Below are positions 2,813 through 36,694 of a stretch of DNA of 39,936 nucleotides, piece by piece (position 1 is the stretch's first letter; each line of letters starts with the position of its first letter). The DNA is from a virus, in IMG/VR virus record IMGVR_UViG_3300020182_000074, positions 1 to 39,936 of that record. The stretch is one strand, 5' to 3'. The position numbers and the translations under genes are program-made. The notes beneath the pieces are model-generated. The model had not been told where the DNA came from. It saw only the letters and a list, made by a program, of their open reading frames with translations, and ran no database searches.

Positions 2813-3010
2813 TTATATTGCATTTCTTTTTCTAAGTTCTGAGCTTATTACTCTTTTCTTTTTACTCATAGAAGGACTTTCCAAATACTTTAATAGGTCT
2901 TTTGTAGACGCACTAGCTACTGTATAGTGTTTCCACTTCCATTTACTAGTCATCCTACCGTTACTGTCTTTTTTATATTCCTTAGAACTTGGTTTTAATT
3001 TTGGTGCCAT
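2813..3010 (-). CDS. Small basic hypothetical protein (MAPKLKPSSKEY family)
   Basis: A 65-residue basic protein begins MAPKLKPSSKEYKKDSNGR. I chose the ATG at 3010 over the longer frame from 3145. The longer version would overlap the upstream gene by more than 120 nt and add sequence that reads as a shadow of it, while 3010 lies 13 nt after that gene's stop. The middle (TSKWKWKHYTVASASTKDLL) is well conserved, as I recall, in small proteins of marine T4-like phages whose role is unknown. The C-terminus is a basic helix (KKKRVISSELRKRN). It may bind nucleic acid, judged only from charge. No Shine-Dalgarno sequence is seen. Confidence 0.65.
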   Translation of the reverse strand: MAPKLKPSSKEYKKDSNGRMTSKWKWKHYTVASASTKDLLKYLESPSMSKKKRVISSELRKRNAI

Positions 3011-19717: not shown

Positions 19718-22700
19718 TTACTTTGTATTGTGAGATAGTATACCGTTGCTTATGTATGTACGACATTTTTCTACTGTAAGGCTTACTACCTTTTGTTTAG
19801 CCCCTTCTTTTATACTCCTTATTGTCTTTCCTGATGCTTTCTGTTCTACTTTTATATCTCTTAAGGCAATAAATTTACTTTCTTCTTCTATATACACTCT
19901 ATGTCCTGGTGTAGCTATAAGTACTGTTCCATCTTCAAATTCAATTTCTAGTGTTTCTTTTTCTGTTGATGAAATTTCTTTACGTATAACTATATCTTCA
20001 AACCACTCTAATGTATCTTCATGTTGAGTCCTAATAATATCTCCAACCTGCAACTCTTCAGCTAGTTTCTGTTTACCGGTTTTCATTAAAATATTGGTGT
20101 CCATACTAACACATAGTTCCTCCTGTTCCCAACCTTGAGCGTCAGAAAATATGTAAGTGTAACCGTCTTTGGTAATTTTCTTATTGAAATTTCCAAATCG
20201 TGAGTTATTTCCAGAATTTTCTGTAACGATGGCTGTAAAAACATTACTGTTCCCTTTTCCATAAGTACGATCTCCATTCACTGAATAGTATGGGTTGTAT
20301 GCTTGAAGCCAACCACCTGGTGCTAGTACTTGCATTTGGTAGTCCGTGTTACCTACGTATGATCCATTGTTTTTTGCTCTTACATAATAAGAACTTGTTT
20401 GTGCGTAACCGGTTACATTAATATAGGTTGGTGGTGTATTTCCGTTGGATGCGTTTTCCCAATCATAATCATATTCTGGTTTGTGTATTACGGATGCTGT
20501 GTAGTATGTTCCTACGTTACCGAAGGTATCAGTAAGGTATATGTACCCAAATACAGTATTACCGTAATCAACGCTAGAGAAATCTTGATTTATATAATCG
20601 TCGAATACAACACTTGATGTACCTGGTGTTGCTGATGATGCGCTTACGTATGTTGTGGTTGCTGTTCGTTGAGTTGCACCAGTATGATTACCATCAAAAA
20701 TTACTGAGACTGTACCGTTAAAGTCTACAGAGTGGTTTACATGGACTTTATATCTAGCAGTGTAATTTACAGACTGTGTTAGTAATAGTACACCGCTTTC
20801 TCGAATTGCAAAGTATCCTGAATATCCTGATGGTACTGCAACTTGTTTAGGTATTACTTTACCGTGGTGGTGGCTTGCTGTATGAACTGTTGATTCTGGT
20901 GATACGTTCCCTACTGCATCTCTTAGTTTAACACTTAGTGTAATATCGTCTCCATCTGATAAGGTAGAACAGTTTACACTTCCAAAAACGGATGATTGGG
21001 CAGCACCTAGTGCTGTATGAACTTCATTACTACTTTCATCTGATGCAGTTACTATCAGTGTAGTACCTACCTCGCAGTTATATACTCTGTAAGGAACGGA
21101 AGTAACGTTGTTGGATGTTATTGAAGAATTATACCATGCTGCTGAAGGGGCTAGAGGAGCAGTATTGTCTAATGTACTACAGTTCGTTATACTGAGTATA
21201 GTTCCATCTGTCTCTATCTCCATGGCAAATATTTCTACTGTATTACCTGTCTGTATTGCTGCGCTATAGAAATCACCTGATCCATTTCCTTGAAAAACTG
21301 AAGCACCGTTAATATCTAGATAAACTTTATCACTTCCGTTTGCTAAGGGTGGTGATGTGGTACCATTGTGGTAGAATTGATATGCATCTGATACAAACGT
21401 GAAAGCTCCACATGCAGCAATATTAGTATTATACTCTGTAGGGTTAAGGCTATCCATTATGTATAGTGACTCTAATACATCGGCACCACTTTGCTCTACT
21501 GAGGTTATATTAAATTTTGTTACCGGGTGAGATAGATATTTAAATGGATTATTAGCATTTAATTCTCCATCAGTTACAGTAATAGTAGAGCCTGATAGTT
21601 CTCCATTATATTTTGGAGATTCATCTGCTATATTTTTTGTAATGGAACCACTCATAGTTTTCACTTCTTCGTTATAAAACGTAGTAGCGTTATGTCTTAT
21701 GTTAGTTCTTGATTTGTTTTTTCCGCCGCTCCAATAAGGGATAGGGTATGAACTAGAATGTAACATGAAGGTTGCCATTACACTGTTTAAGGAAGATGGG
21801 TTATTTGCCACGTTTCCTGATGTTCCAAGCTGTTTTTGTGTTATTCTTAAAGTATCTCCGTCTTCAAATTTAGTTACAATTTCTAATTCAAATCTATACT
21901 TTTGCGCATTAGAACTTTCGATAGCATCTCTAAATGCTAATGCTTTTGTTGCTGCTGAACTACTTACTGGGATTACCACTCCTACATTGGAGCTGTAAAT
22001 GTCTCCGGTTGTTCCGGCATTTCTTACTTGGTAAGATTTTGTTAAAACAGGTAGAACGTTAGAAGTAAGGATTAAACATTGATTCGCAGCAGTTGGAGAG
22101 TAATCAGAATACTTAAATGTAAGTTCTGTAGTTGCTGCTGTAGGTTCTTCAATAATAAAACCATTTAGTGGAGTATAGAATTTATGTATTTCTTTTTTAA
22201 CTCCTACAGAACCTGATTGTTCAAATGCTGCTAGTATTACATCGTTTGGAAGTGGATCAAAAACGTGGTAATCGTTACTGTCATCAAATCTGGCGGACCA
22301 TCTACTGCTTGAGTTTTGTAGGTTATAAGCTATACACACTAGGTTTGGGTGATGTATATTAGCATCAAATGAAGTGTTTCCTGGGAATCTATTATCAATT
22401 GACTCAGAGCTGAACATTACATAGAAGTCTTGATGTATACTTGTGGTTGATCCTGTAGGATGTATTTCGTAGGGTGTACCTATAAACTTATCTTTTATAA
22501 CTGGATCTGTACCTATTATATTTCCTGGTTTGTATACTTCTTCTATATCATACTCAGTTCCATCTGGATGATAAAATACTGTACCCTGTGGTACTATTTC
22601 ACCGTAGTCTACTGATCCAGTAGCAAAATTTATATGAAAATTGATATCTGAATGTCCTCCTACCTTACCTGGGCTAAAATCAACAGGTAGTCCTTTTAAG

Positions 22701-25495
22701 TGTTTATTTTCCGGTAATACTTTATCATTGTATACTCCTGCTGAAGAACCTGTTACAAATGCTGTATCTATGCTTGCTGAGTAAGTATTGTCGGTTCCTT
22801 CAACAGAGGGTGATTTAATTTTAGATCTCTCTAACTTATGTGGCTGTATGATAATACCTACATCTAAATTTGCATTAGAAGGTACAAAATCTTTAATCAT
22901 CTTAAAGAGTACGTTATCGTAAAATTTAAAAATACGTACAAAATCTTTTAAGTTATAATTTAAATATTCTTTTCCTAGATCCGGAAAAATATTATACTTC
23001 AGTCTCTCTAACGTGTACTTATACTTATCATCAGGTGATTCATAAACATCCTTATTAAGGTCTCTAGGATCTCCAATCCAATCATCTAGACTAAATTGCG
23101 AAGATTGGAAGGATGGTCTTATTAGGTCTGTTTGTTCAGTAATGTATTTATTTAATACTGTAGAAGGTGAAAATCCTACTTCTACTTTTCTTGACTTATT
23201 TATGTTAGTAGACCTATTATCTCCTGCTGGTGCTTCTAATGTTATTGACCTATTTCCAGTTAGTACTTTGCCGTCTTCTGGGGTTGTGGATTTTACGGTT
23301 ACGCTCTTTATAGAAGATGTATAGGTATTTTCTGGTCCAAAATATATAGAGTCTTCCTGCTGCCCAAATGTTTTAATTGTTAAAAAATCTTTAGGTATAC
23401 CAAAGCAGTTTATAAGTGCTCTTAGTCCTCGTTCTGTACCTTTGGATTTAAGTAGAAGCGGTATATTATGGTAAAGTCTTTTGTATACACTTGCTTCATA
23501 ATCTTTTGTAGATATAGACTTATTGGTAGAAGTAATACCTCCTGTGAATGCGGTTGACATTCCTCCGGATATTTTATCTACTCCATAAAAGCTAGACCCT
23601 GTTACCCATGCTAGATTTCCTTGCGGACCTGCTATTGTTTGTTTTATTATTATCTCTCCAGCTATGGATGATGATTCATAAGTAAATTCTGCACCGTGAC
23701 CATTATTACTCTTTATAGCGTTACTAAATCGATACTCTCTTGTTGTTGCTGCTGTATACGTCGCTGGTTCCCCTATATAAAATAGTGTATTACCTGTTGT
23801 TGCATCAATTGTAGATGTTTTTGATATATCGTTAGTCGCTTGGTATGTAATTGTTGTTCCTTGTACAGAGGTTAAAGTAAGTGTCATATTACTGTCTGCA
23901 GTATTTGAATCACTTCTAAATCTTATAAAGCCACTTGCAAACTCTGCTTCAACAAAAGGACCTGCGTAGTGGTTTATTACTTCGCTTTGACTGCCGCTGT
24001 CGTATGTATCCTGTATAATGTAGCTGAACAAATCGTTTGCACCTTCAGTAGAATTGTATAGTTTTAAACCCATACTCTTTACTGCTTCTTGTACTAAGTC
24101 TTTAGATATACCATAATCTAACCTGTTGTCTGTATCATATTTATCTGTTAGAGCTTTAGTATATATCCATAAGTTATCGTAATGCTGACCGAGCATATGG
24201 GTGAATGTAATAGCTGCTTTATTATTATCATCGTCTGCTATATATCCTGGTAGAAATCCGGTTAACAGATCTAGGTTTCTTGCATCATAAGCAGATGCAG
24301 ATGATAACTGTTCGTTAAACCATGTTACCGATGATGTGTTGTTTATCTCTAAATTTATATAGGGTTTATCATCATTAGATTTAGGCCACGATTTAGATCC
24401 ACTTTCATAGTATAAGAACCTTTCATAGTGATCAAAATTATTTACTATTCCGTCTATTAGATTCTTTGTTGCTACTATACTTCCGCTTGCTGCTGTTGTA
24501 TTAGGATTGTTAATTCCCTGTTCTGCAAGTAAGTCACTCTCGTATGCTTCTAGTAAGCTTACTTTATATTTAAAGTTTCTGAGTCTTTCTTCAGCAGAAG
24601 AAAAGTGAATAAAGTTTTCGTATTCTCTATGGTCTATGCCGATGTTTGCACTCTTTTCATTTATGAGTGAAAATAATTCTTTATTAGAGTTACTAGACTC
24701 ATAGCTAAATAAATCGTTTAATTTAAAGTACTCTGTAGGTGTACTGTCTTGAGTCTCTAATTCTACGGAAAAGTTTGCTTGTCTTAGTTTTGGAGGCTGT
24801 CTTTCTTCTTCCTCTATATCCGGTATAACTAAAGTAGCTATTGAATCTGATATTTTTTCTACTAGTTGAACCTCACTCTTAATATCGTATTTATCAGGTA
24901 ATGGTTCATATAACCTCAGTGCAACTGTGTATTTATTATCTAGTTGGAATGTATCTATATTTGTTATTATCAGAAGATCATTATCCCCCATGTTAAGAGA
25001 AAGTTCTTCAAAGTAACTTTTACTCTGTATCTTTTCTTTTAGTTCATCTGTTTTGTTAATTAGGTCGTTTACCTTTATCTTATCAGAGTATAGTAGAACT
25101 TCTTTACGGTCTGTTGATATACTGTGTATATATAAATCTTGCTTACCGTTACCGATTGTAAATACATCGTTTAGAAAGTGAAATAGTACTTTTACTTTAG
25201 TACGTGCAAATCCTTGCTGTATGGCTAGTTCAGCAGGTTTTAATTCTATTTCTGTTGATTTTTGATCTGCTGTAGGTATACTTAGATTCGGGACCGGTAG
25301 TGAGTAGTTATACGAAGAGTACAGTCTATAGTTATTTACCGTATAAAAATGAGTTTCAATATAATGCTTATTAAAGTCAAACTCCTTATTAACTTTAAAA
25401 TTATCTATTAAGTTAAGATCTTTACTTGAGTATTGCTCTACATCAGGTAGGTTATTAGCAATAATATCTTGTGAAGTGTATGTTACTTTAGCCAT
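19718..25495 (-). CDS. Giant tail/baseplate protein ending in a Hint (intein-type) domain
   Basis: This is the largest gene in the window (1925 residues). The first 1000 or so residues resemble baseplate proteins of marine myophages in position and composition. About 1400-1780 is beta-rich, with Ig-like turns (DNTAPLAPSA, LRDAVGNVSP, LTDTFGNVGT) suggesting adhesion modules. Residues 1795-1923 form a Hint domain: Cys1795 in LCVSMDTNILM, the block-B signature ATPGHRV, and the closing block TYISNGILSHN, followed by Thr-Lys and the stop. All residues needed for N-S acyl shift, Asn cyclisation and a +1 nucleophile are present. The domain may remove itself from the mature tail protein or attach the end to another molecule. 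Confidence 0.8.
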   Translation of the reverse strand: MAKVTYTSQDIIANNLPDVEQYSSKDLNLIDNFKVNKEFDFNKHYIETHFYTVNNYRLYSSYNYSLPVPNLSIPTADQKSTEIELKPAELAIQQGFARTKVKVLFHFLNDVFTIGNGKQDLYIHSISTDRKEVLLYSDKIKVNDLINKTDELKEKIQSKSYFEELSLNMGDNDLLIITNIDTFQLDNKYTVALRLYEPLPDKYDIKSEVQLVEKISDSIATLVIPDIEEEERQPPKLRQANFSVELETQDSTPTEYFKLNDLFSYESSNSNKELFSLINEKSANIGIDHREYENFIHFSSAEERLRNFKYKVSLLEAYESDLLAEQGINNPNTTAASGSIVATKNLIDGIVNNFDHYERFLYYESGSKSWPKSNDDKPYINLEINNTSSVTWFNEQLSSASAYDARNLDLLTGFLPGYIADDDNNKAAITFTHMLGQHYDNLWIYTKALTDKYDTDNRLDYGISKDLVQEAVKSMGLKLYNSTEGANDLFSYIIQDTYDSGSQSEVINHYAGPFVEAEFASGFIRFRSDSNTADSNMTLTLTSVQGTTITYQATNDISKTSTIDATTGNTLFYIGEPATYTAATTREYRFSNAIKSNNGHGAEFTYESSSIAGEIIIKQTIAGPQGNLAWVTGSSFYGVDKISGGMSTAFTGGITSTNKSISTKDYEASVYKRLYHNIPLLLKSKGTERGLRALINCFGIPKDFLTIKTFGQQEDSIYFGPENTYTSSIKSVTVKSTTPEDGKVLTGNRSITLEAPAGDNRSTNINKSRKVEVGFSPSTVLNKYITEQTDLIRPSFQSSQFSLDDWIGDPRDLNKDVYESPDDKYKYTLERLKYNIFPDLGKEYLNYNLKDFVRIFKFYDNVLFKMIKDFVPSNANLDVGIIIQPHKLERSKIKSPSVEGTDNTYSASIDTAFVTGSSAGVYNDKVLPENKHLKGLPVDFSPGKVGGHSDINFHINFATGSVDYGEIVPQGTVFYHPDGTEYDIEEVYKPGNIIGTDPVIKDKFIGTPYEIHPTGSTTSIHQDFYVMFSSESIDNRFPGNTSFDANIHHPNLVCIAYNLQNSSSRWSARFDDSNDYHVFDPLPNDVILAAFEQSGSVGVKKEIHKFYTPLNGFIIEEPTAATTELTFKYSDYSPTAANQCLILTSNVLPVLTKSYQVRNAGTTGDIYSSNVGVVIPVSSSAATKALAFRDAIESSNAQKYRFELEIVTKFEDGDTLRITQKQLGTSGNVANNPSSLNSVMATFMLHSSSYPIPYWSGGKNKSRTNIRHNATTFYNEEVKTMSGSITKNIADESPKYNGELSGSTITVTDGELNANNPFKYLSHPVTKFNITSVEQSGADVLESLYIMDSLNPTEYNTNIAACGAFTFVSDAYQFYHNGTTSPPLANGSDKVYLDINGASVFQGNGSGDFYSAAIQTGNTVEIFAMEIETDGTILSITNCSTLDNTAPLAPSAAWYNSSITSNNVTSVPYRVYNCEVGTTLIVTASDESSNEVHTALGAAQSSVFGSVNCSTLSDGDDITLSVKLRDAVGNVSPESTVHTASHHHGKVIPKQVAVPSGYSGYFAIRESGVLLLTQSVNYTARYKVHVNHSVDFNGTVSVIFDGNHTGATQRTATTTYVSASSATPGTSSVVFDDYINQDFSSVDYGNTVFGYIYLTDTFGNVGTYYTASVIHKPEYDYDWENASNGNTPPTYINVTGYAQTSSYYVRAKNNGSYVGNTDYQMQVLAPGGWLQAYNPYYSVNGDRTYGKGNSNVFTAIVTENSGNNSRFGNFNKKITKDGYTYIFSDAQGWEQEELCVSMDTNILMKTGKQKLAEELQVGDIIRTQHEDTLEWFEDIVIRKEISSTEKETLEIEFEDGTVLIATPGHRVYIEEESKFIALRDIKVEQKASGKTIRSIKEGAKQKVVSLTVEKCRTYISNGILSHNTK

Positions 25496-32631: not shown

Positions 32632-33336
32632 TTAAAGTTCTTTTGTACGAATTAAACCTACATCATTATATTTATCAAATAAAACATAGAAGTGTGTTTT
32701 TAACTTATTTACTACTTTAGTTAAGTGTGGAGTTTCACAATCCGTCATTTCCCTTATGTATATATACAGAGCTTTCTTTTTAAAGATATCTAAATCCTGT
32801 CTTGTTTTGAATATGGTTAAAATAGCATCTGCTATCTTTCTTTCGCTTTCCTTAGGGAAGTTATTTTCTAAGTCCACATATGCTTCTTCTACGTATGTAT
32901 CTAGAAATTGGCTGAGTGATATAGAGTCTTCTTCGTTTTTCCAAAATGGAGTATCGTACGAGTCTTCCATATCATCAAAACTCCCGATCTTCTTTAACTT
33001 CTTATAATTTTTATTATTGTAATTTATTAACCACCTTTTTACTATAGTTCCAAAATAAGAATAAGCTTTTGCTCCATTATCCTTATCAAACTTCATAATC
33101 TTTTCTTCTAAAAGCATAGAAACTATTTCATGTTTAAGATCTTCAATCTTATCAACATCTGTATAATAAAATTTAAATGTATGAATTATATTCTCTGCTA
33201 GCTTATAGAACGGGTAGTATATATGTTCTGTGAATATTTTATTACGGTATTCGGTATCTATTGAAGAGTTATACCTGTTTATATATTCTTCTGTCTCTTT
33301 TGTAAAGTAATTAGCTTTTGATTTCTTTCTTGGCAT
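32632..33336 (-). CDS. Late-transcription sigma factor, T4 gp55-like
   Basis: The 234 residues contain a sigma region-2-like core at about 60-115: KIEDLKHEIVSMLLEEKIMK, FDKDNGAKAYSYFGTIVKRW, LINYNNKNYKKLKKIG. The FD-x-A-x-x-YF-x-x-x-x-x-R-W pattern is the hallmark of gp55-type factors, which with the sliding clamp direct host RNA polymerase to late promoters. It lies directly before the tail genes. The C-terminal half (about 150-234) is helical and less conserved. Start at 33336 overlaps the upstream membrane-protein gene by 26 nt. The next in-frame Met is well inside the domain, so this start is preferred. Confidence 0.8.
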   Translation of the reverse strand: MPRKKSKANYFTKETEEYINRYNSSIDTEYRNKIFTEHIYYPFYKLAENIIHTFKFYYTDVDKIEDLKHEIVSMLLEEKIMKFDKDNGAKAYSYFGTIVKRWLINYNNKNYKKLKKIGSFDDMEDSYDTPFWKNEEDSISLSQFLDTYVEEAYVDLENNFPKESERKIADAILTIFKTRQDLDIFKKKALYIYIREMTDCETPHLTKVVNKLKTHFYVLFDKYNDVGLIRTKEL

Positions 33337-35581: not shown

Positions 35582-36022
35582 TTATTTATTGATTATTTGG
35601 TAAACTTCTTCTAAAATAAAGAGATCTTTGTATTGAACGATTTTAGCACATTTTTCATAATGCTCAACATTTACATAATGTTCTATCAAATCATCTAAAG
35701 CTAATTGTATCTCATCCTTTGAATAGCTTTTACCTATACGGAAAGCAGTCTCTATCTTAGTTAAATCTAATCTATTAAGATATCCATACATCTTATCGTA
35801 GTATTTACCTTTAATACCTGGTTCTGCCTTCTCGAATTGCTCTGGATACTTACGAGTATACATTAATACCATAAGTTTATAGTTCTCTAAGCCTCTTAAT
35901 ACCATACCCATAAGTACAAAGGGATTATCTAAGACATCATCATGTCCATGCTCTCTATATACCTCCTCATCCCCTTGTTCAAAGATGCTAAACAGCGTAT
36001 GTGGGTCTAGTTTTTCCATCAT
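35582..36022 (-). CDS. Hypothetical helical protein, probably early
   Basis: The 146 residues (or 145, if the second ATG three bases later is used) are acidic and helical: LFSIFEQGDEEVYREHGHDD, GMVLRGLENYKLMVLMYTRK, and an end ALDDLIEHYVNVEHYEKCAK. No catalytic motif is visible. It is divergent from the plus-strand bS21 operon, with both sets of promoter signals packed into about 120 nt. A minus-strand TTG-N22-TACCTCT at 36044-36075 could drive it. Function unknown. Confidence 0.7.
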   Translation of the reverse strand: MMEKLDPHTLFSIFEQGDEEVYREHGHDDVLDNPFVLMGMVLRGLENYKLMVLMYTRKYPEQFEKAEPGIKGKYYDKMYGYLNRLDLTKIETAFRIGKSYSKDEIQLALDDLIEHYVNVEHYEKCAKIVQYKDLFILEEVYQIINK

Positions 36023-36075: not shown

Positions 36076-36080
36076 TATTA

Positions 36081-36113
36081 GTTGTTTTTTATACCAAAAG
36101 TTCATATATTAAT
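36081..36113 (+). promoter_or_regulatory. Early-type promoter of the bS21 operon
   Basis: On the plus strand GTTG (36081-36084), exactly 20 nt, then TATATTAAT (36105-36113), 28 nt before the ATG at 36141. It is the only plus-strand copy of the repeated promoter in the window. Confidence 0.6.
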
Positions 36114-36140: not shown

Positions 36141-36323
36141 ATGAGTACTGGAGAAGATTTACTGTATATTGCATATGCTCAAGGTAAAAACGTAGAGCTA
36201 CTTAAAAGGGTCGGAGAAATACGGTCGACCAAGCAAGGACAACGTAAAGATATGAACGAACTCATAGATATGGCATATCAAGAGCTAGTCAAAGAAGGAA
36301 TACTCCAGTTAGACAGCCCATAG
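36141..36323 (+). CDS. Small helical protein, first gene of the bS21 operon
   Basis: The 60 residues begin MSTGEDLLYIAYAQGKNVEL and are predicted to be two or three helices with a basic middle (RVGEIRSTKQGQRKDMNELI). No family recognised. It is the first gene after the plus-strand promoter and lies 27 nt before bS21, so the two are almost certainly on one mRNA. A role in ribosome or RNA binding would fit the basic charge and the neighbour but is only a guess. Confidence 0.65.
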   Translation: MSTGEDLLYIAYAQGKNVELLKRVGEIRSTKQGQRKDMNELIDMAYQELVKEGILQLDSP

Positions 36324-36350: not shown

Positions 36351-36551
36351 ATGTTAAGAATAATACTTAAGAAAGGTGAGGACATTGCAAGAGCATTAAA
36401 GAGGTATAAACGTAAGGTACGTAATACAAAGCTATTAAAAGAGCAGAGAGAACGTAAACACTACACAAAACCTTCTGATGCCAAGCGTAAGTCTAAACAA
36501 AAGACGATCATGACTCGTAAATACAAAGATAAACATGAAGATTTAAACTAA
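36351..36551 (+). CDS. rpsU: Ribosomal protein bS21, phage-encoded
   Basis: The 66 residues match bS21 throughout: MLRIILKKGEDIARALKRYK, RKVRNTKLLKEQRERKHYTK, PSDAKRKSKQKTIMTRKYKD. The RALKRYKRK and KPS elements are those of Bacteroidota bS21. bS21 is the last protein to join the small subunit, near the 16S 3' end. In Bacteroidota ribosomes it helps hold the anti-Shine-Dalgarno tail. Phage copies are known from several marine phages and are thought to replace the host protein. From memory, the host protein has Tyr at position 54; here an ungapped count puts Met54 there. No Shine-Dalgarno sequence precedes the ATG. Its stop shares a base with the next start (TAATG). Confidence 0.9.
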   Translation: MLRIILKKGEDIARALKRYKRKVRNTKLLKEQRERKHYTKPSDAKRKSKQKTIMTRKYKDKHEDLN

Positions 36552-36694
36552 TGGATAATAGAGAACAAAATAAACAGTTAGGCAAACAAGTATTAGGTAT
36601 GTTGGGTGATACCGTATTTGCTTTAATAGTAGGTGTATTGTGTTTATTTGTATTAGGTGGTGTTGTGAGTGCTATGTGGAGTATAATAGCTTAA
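36551..36694 (+). CDS. 47-residue single-span membrane protein
   Basis: This small gene starts in the stop codon of bS21 (TAATG) and was found by reading the frame. The product begins MDNREQNKQLGKQVLGMLGD, then has one hydrophobic span (TVFALIVGVLCLFVLGGVVS) and ends AMWSIIA. The strict coupling to bS21 and the clean hydrophobic span support it as real. A polar N-terminus and one span fit a small inner-membrane protein. Role unknown. Confidence 0.65.
   Translation: MDNREQNKQLGKQVLGMLGDTVFALIVGVLCLFVLGGVVSAMWSIIA

Follow-up and report, generated by a model that had tools for sequence, protein, structure and literature searches.

The window, by which the whole stretch of DNA analysed here is meant, is a virus record 39,936 bases long and is probably a fragment; in it, a + strand unit of three genes is surrounded by genes on the - strand. 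The middle gene of this unit encodes bS21 (Table 1). An earlier note, made from the sequence alone, had described a full bS21 of Bacteroidota type on a divergent operon with its own promoter, the absence of a Shine-Dalgarno (SD) leader, and a Met at position 54, and all of these features are borne out.

Table 1. Features of the bS21 operon and its divergent neighbour in the window
Feature	Coordinates	Strand	Remarks
Phage-type promoter motif of the bS21 operon, AGTTG-N17-TTCATATATTA	36080-36111	+	Recurrent motif
60-aa ORF, first gene of the operon	36141-36323	+	Conserved in L003 and L034
bS21 (rpsU homologue), phage-encoded, 66 aa, complete	36351-36551	+	Pfam, PHROG, 7jil alignment
Codon 54, ATG (Met)	36510-36512	+	AAG (Lys) in nearest relative; Tyr in hosts
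Codon 58, TAC (Tyr)	36522-36524	+	Aromatic one helical turn past 54
47-aa ORF with long hydrophobic stretch	36551-36694	+	Start overlaps bS21 stop (TAATG)
146-aa gene, divergent from the bS21 operon	35582-36022	-	41% identity to a Flavobacterium phage immuto gene

The product of the middle gene, MLRIILKKGEDIARALKRYKRKVRNTKLLKEQRERKHYTKPSDAKRKSKQKTIMTRKYKDKHEDLN, matches Pfam Ribosomal_S21 (PF01165) with 53 bits (E=2.7e-14), above the curated cut-off of 27, and the PHROG annotation 'ribosomal protein S21' (2.2e-7). Its top matches among solved structures are two bS21 chains, 9i5v and that of Flavobacterium johnsoniae (7jil), and both align without gaps; against 7jil the alignment spans residues 1-62 and places Met54 opposite Tyr54, the rest of the protein being of the Bacteroidia type. 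Flavobacteriaceae provide the closest cellular homologues (as much as 65-72% across the 46-52 N-terminal residues). The structure model is helical (mean pLDDT 87), and a Foldseek search with it matched only chains of ribosomes or ribosomal subunits, albeit weakly (best E 0.11, TM ~0.48). Between the window and the nearest relative, L003, the gene has accumulated 14 synonymous and 7 non-synonymous changes, and the resulting dN/dS of ~0.09 indicates that the whole gene is under strong purifying selection. The 60-aa ORF is without a match in Pfam or PHROG, while the 47-aa ORF is conserved in L003 and has a counterpart in L036, where a small ORF of like kind comes after bS21.

By kinship with its relatives, the window phage is most likely an immuto-like myovirus of marine Bacteroidia. 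Thirty-two window ORFs match Flavobacterium phage immuto at a mean identity of 52%, and their order is largely kept through the tail and baseplate block. Related contigs (G001, G007, G011, G013 and G014) likewise match immuto; the largest related contigs are 168 and 191 kb, and the 168-kb relative shares 67 ORFs with immuto. When the first 24 kb of the window were compared with phage records by megablast, no match was obtained. No TerL, the protein that defines clades a-e of the bS21 phages of Chen et al. (2022), was identified within the window; the kinship described is to immuto. This phage, the lineage's only cultured relative, grows on Flavobacterium sp. LMO8, and the host class of the window phage, judged from its relatives, is probably Flavobacteriia. 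No bS21 of immuto, even residual, was found in the 92 kb examined or in a search of all phage records. Two other proteins of the window deserve mention. A 234-aa protein (32632-33336, -), 62% identical to an immuto protein, looks sigma-factor-like by eye and has no match in Pfam or PHROG, and a 1925-aa protein (19718-25495, -) ends in a Hint/intein-splicing-like region (about residues 1792-1923), the Pfam matches of which are weak and under the cut-offs.

The promoter ahead of the bS21 operon belongs to a family that recurs throughout these phages. AGTTG-N17-TYNTATNTTW is found in 9 copies in the window versus 0.5 expected, every copy being exactly 32 nt long, and it is similarly enriched in the 168-kb relative (28 copies versus 1.6 expected) and in the immuto stretches (20 versus 1.0), while remaining at chance level in hosts and in phages whose bS21 carries Tyr54. 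Upstream of the bS21 start there is no SD, and the strong extended SD of Bacteroidia rpsU is absent. In the cellular genomes surveyed, the standard host rpsU carries a strong SD, unlike the phage gene, but many second cellular bS21 copies also lack one, and the absence of an SD is thus not specific to phages. A separate leader element, AAAGGTT immediately 5′ of ATG, occurs five times in the window (5254, 35510, 37245, 37584, 37924, -) where 0.17 copies would be expected, most of them following the phage promoter motif; in G001 and G013 it stands before 16 and 7 genes, respectively, and it is nearly missing from hosts and Tyr54 phages. At a distance of 2 nt from the start codon it is too close for a normal SD and was rejected as a possible one, and it is absent from the bS21 operon.

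In F. johnsoniae, Tyr54 of bS21 stacks on A1534 (McNutt et al., 2023; PMC9976891). The family and the numbering are the same in the phage protein, and the Y54A mutant of that study serves as a laboratory analogue of a non-aromatic residue 54. In Y54A, expression of SD-bearing reporters rises about 1.7- to 3-fold and that of SD-less ones is nearly unchanged; the 3-fold increase is that of the SD-bearing rpsU reporter, seen both in vivo and in vitro, whereas initiation complexes on SD-less mRNA form somewhat more poorly with Y54A ribosomes, and Y54A cells form normal colonies (PMC9976891). The statement in the earlier note that the host protein has Tyr at this position is confirmed by the cellular homologues surveyed: among 113 distinct Bacteroidia-type proteins, residue 54 is Tyr in 109, Phe in 2 and His in 2, and in none is it Met. 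A further 20 cellular proteins from the same phylum sample, of non-Bacteroidia type, have Arg54, and neither Lys54 nor Met54 was found in the 133 distinct cellular homologues; these tallies combine the best genome-collection matches with matches from an even phylum draw, where reading was confined to those that scored better or had been picked by hand, and they do not represent a random sample.

Among the distinct phage bS21 proteins, this site is Tyr in 37, Lys in 9, His in 2, and Met and Arg in 1 each. Lys54 is encoded by seven contigs whose bS21 is 92% identical to that of the window, an eighth related contig (L024) ending before the residue, and the Met codon is one base away from the AAG of these nearest relatives. 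Met54 itself was found in one contig only; a DNA pattern for KQKTIMT gave a single other match, which is out of frame and not bS21, and was rejected as a second instance. The lineage state at 54 is Lys rather than Met, a point that had escaped the earlier note, and non-aromatic residues extend over a lineage of immuto-like phages (10 distinct proteins), within which Y, H, K and M are all represented. The aromatic residue that characterizes ASD-sequestering bS21 of the Bacteroidia type is thus missing from the window protein and from its nearest relatives. In a published survey of phage bS21, residue 54 was aromatic in 61 of 61 proteins (Chen et al., 2022; PMC9723584), relative to which the Met/Lys54 lineage is new.

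Also overlooked at first reading was the aromatic residue at position 58, which is present (as Tyr, Trp or Phe) in all 10 distinct Bacteroidia-type phage proteins with a non-aromatic residue 54. The immuto-like phages contribute 22 distinct bS21 proteins of the Bacteroidia type, namely these 10, a further 7 that are aromatic at both positions and 5 that have Tyr54 alone, and none lacks an aromatic residue at both; the other phage lineage invariably has Tyr54 and never an aromatic residue 58. The association between the two sites has a Fisher p of 2e-6 over all phages with ancestry ignored, and within the lineage, whose sequences share ancestry, the pattern has a chance probability of 0.03. A poorly resolved tree of columns 1-51 requires a minimum of 4 changes at residue 54, and independent pairs were too few for a phylogenetic sign test; few independent events, possibly a single origin, underlie the association. 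Tyr58 is retained through a synonymous change between the window and its nearest relative, and in the structure model residues 41-63 form one predicted helix, on which 54 and 58 lie one turn apart. Conceivably, the aromatic residue at 58 compensates for the one lost at 54, in which case it would be residue 58 that touches the 16S tail. Two divergent, N-terminally extended phage bS21 proteins (L406 and L409, the latter in the match starting at 3001) have Arg54 and some immuto-like neighbours; one of them has Tyr58 and the other, L406, Tyr57.

Similar genes are known from other phages. Chen et al. (2022; PMC9723584) described large freshwater myoviruses, with Bacteroidetes as their predicted hosts, that likewise encode a Bacteroidia-type bS21; its gene, like that of the window, runs opposite to the adjoining structural genes, and the protein was proposed to replace host bS21. 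Those phages differ from the present lineage, which is tied to immuto and combines Met/Lys54 with an aromatic residue 58. The bS21 of Pelagibacter phage HTVC008M, also a phage gene but of alphaproteobacterial type and outside the context of a sequestered ASD, is incorporated into 70S ribosomes of E. coli (Mizuno et al., 2019; PMC6375957), and by analogy the window protein probably enters 30S subunits. The F. johnsoniae system itself departs from that of the phage in two respects: its rpsU has a strong SD and is autoregulated, whereas the phage gene is without an SD, and residue 58 is Leu rather than Tyr.

These observations can be combined in a scheme to which we would give an even chance, namely that a functional, vertically inherited phage bS21 replaces host bS21, evades SD-based autoregulation, and keeps hold of the 16S tail by an altered contact. 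The protein would be produced during infection from its own phage promoter and through an SD-less leader that ordinary ribosomes could read; because this leader has no SD, the gene should stand outside the SD-dependent autoregulation of bS21 that applies to rpsU of the standard type. The phage protein would then take the place of host bS21 in 30S subunits, and the 16S 3′ tail would now be contacted by an aromatic ring at residue 58, on the helix face that also bears residue 54, the former site of contact. As Tyr54 alone, both aromatic residues, and an aromatic residue 58 alone are each represented among the bS21 proteins of this lineage, most likely the tail is still held, although differently. 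A more specific version, in which relocation of the clamp in immuto-like phages sets the anti-SD tail in another register and confers a phage-specific, SD-independent preference in initiation, strikes us as doubtful.

The earlier note had instead suggested that the phage protein could free or re-set the tail and change which mRNAs are read during infection. Part of this idea stands, as the residue at the tail-holding site is indeed not that of hosts, being fixed as non-aromatic in a phage group and absent as such from the 113 Bacteroidia-type cellular proteins, and the increased output of the SD-bearing rpsU reporter in Y54A shows what loss of the aromatic ring can do (PMC9976891). What did not hold up is the expected use of SDs by phage genes. 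With gene starts called by a simple script rather than a gene finder, the share of genes with an SD tetramer ahead of them is 0 of 34 in the window (4.2% when shuffled), 4.3% in G001 (4.2%), 4.8% in G007 (7.3%) and 5.6% in G011 (5.3%); pooled over the phages with Met54 or Lys54 the value is 4.6%, close to each contig's shuffled value, versus 55% and 17% shuffled in the T4 control. Neither by motif nor by mean pairing energy is there any SD enrichment in these phages, which do not differ in this regard from Tyr54 phages or immuto, and SD use was accordingly rejected as a sign of a freed ASD. As phage genes lack SDs above chance, freed tails would not favour them, and Y54A ribosomes are somewhat worse at forming initiation complexes on SD-less mRNA. 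The best predicted beneficiary is host rpsU itself. This result argues against retargeting through SD pairing and leaves other effects of an altered tail unaffected; given also that the contact may be replaced by the aromatic residue 58, a freed tail that alters mRNA choice in the manner of Y54A is an unlikely outcome.

A plainer view is that the phage merely supplies bS21 so that 30S subunits stay complete during infection, with residue 54 relaxed, tail holding irrelevant, and residue 58 aromatic by descent only. The mixture of Y, H, K and M in one lineage fits this, as do the Lys/Met difference between nearest relatives, the absence of a detected bS21 in immuto, and the normal colonies of Y54A cells (PMC9976891); against it stand the strong purifying selection over the whole gene and the unbroken occurrence of an aromatic residue 58 in Bacteroidia-type proteins that have lost that at 54, and we regard it as possible but rather unlikely. 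Alternatively, the phage protein could match a host that itself has a different bS21 or 16S tail, such as Weeksellaceae with a UCUCA anti-SD or a non-Bacteroidia host with Arg54. Arg54 is standard in the non-Bacteroidia cellular proteins, an alternative ASD is present in Chryseobacteria and their relatives (PMC8710568), and the host of the window phage is judged from its relatives only. Yet the only cultured one infects Flavobacterium, the N-terminal half of the phage bS21 is Bacteroidia-type, and Lys54 and Met54 are missing from the 133 distinct cellular homologues examined, which makes such matching quite improbable. Finally, a sequencing or assembly error in the single contig with Met54, one base from Lys, would be in keeping with the lack of another such contig, but codon 54 sits among normal synonymous differences, and the main point would survive because Lys in the seven related contigs is also non-aromatic; we consider an error very improbable.

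That phages encode bS21, that it likely enters ribosomes, and that Tyr54 has a role in holding the tail were known already; the lineage combining a non-aromatic residue 54 with an aromatic residue 58 is new. Of all ribosomal proteins encoded by viruses, bS21 is the most common. Reporters and purified ribosomes with which to measure what residue 54 does are already available for Bacteroidia, and the natural allele series (Y54, Y54 with aromatic 58, H54 with F58, K54 with aromatic 58, and M54 with Y58) thus lends itself to a direct test of whether initiation is reprogrammed by phages via the 16S tail.

Cellular genomes contain related arrangements. Several Flavobacteriaceae with two or three bS21 genes (L113, L111, L120 and L137/L107; genomes G015-G020) have one copy with a strong SD, AGGAGG, and one or more that are SD-less. 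The second paralogues L113, L111 and L120 resemble the phage gene in lacking an SD, in sequence and, in several cases, in having an aromatic residue 58, but they are cellular and keep the aromatic residue at 54; several SD-less copies are thus aromatic at both positions. One further protein, L328, combines His54 with Tyr58.
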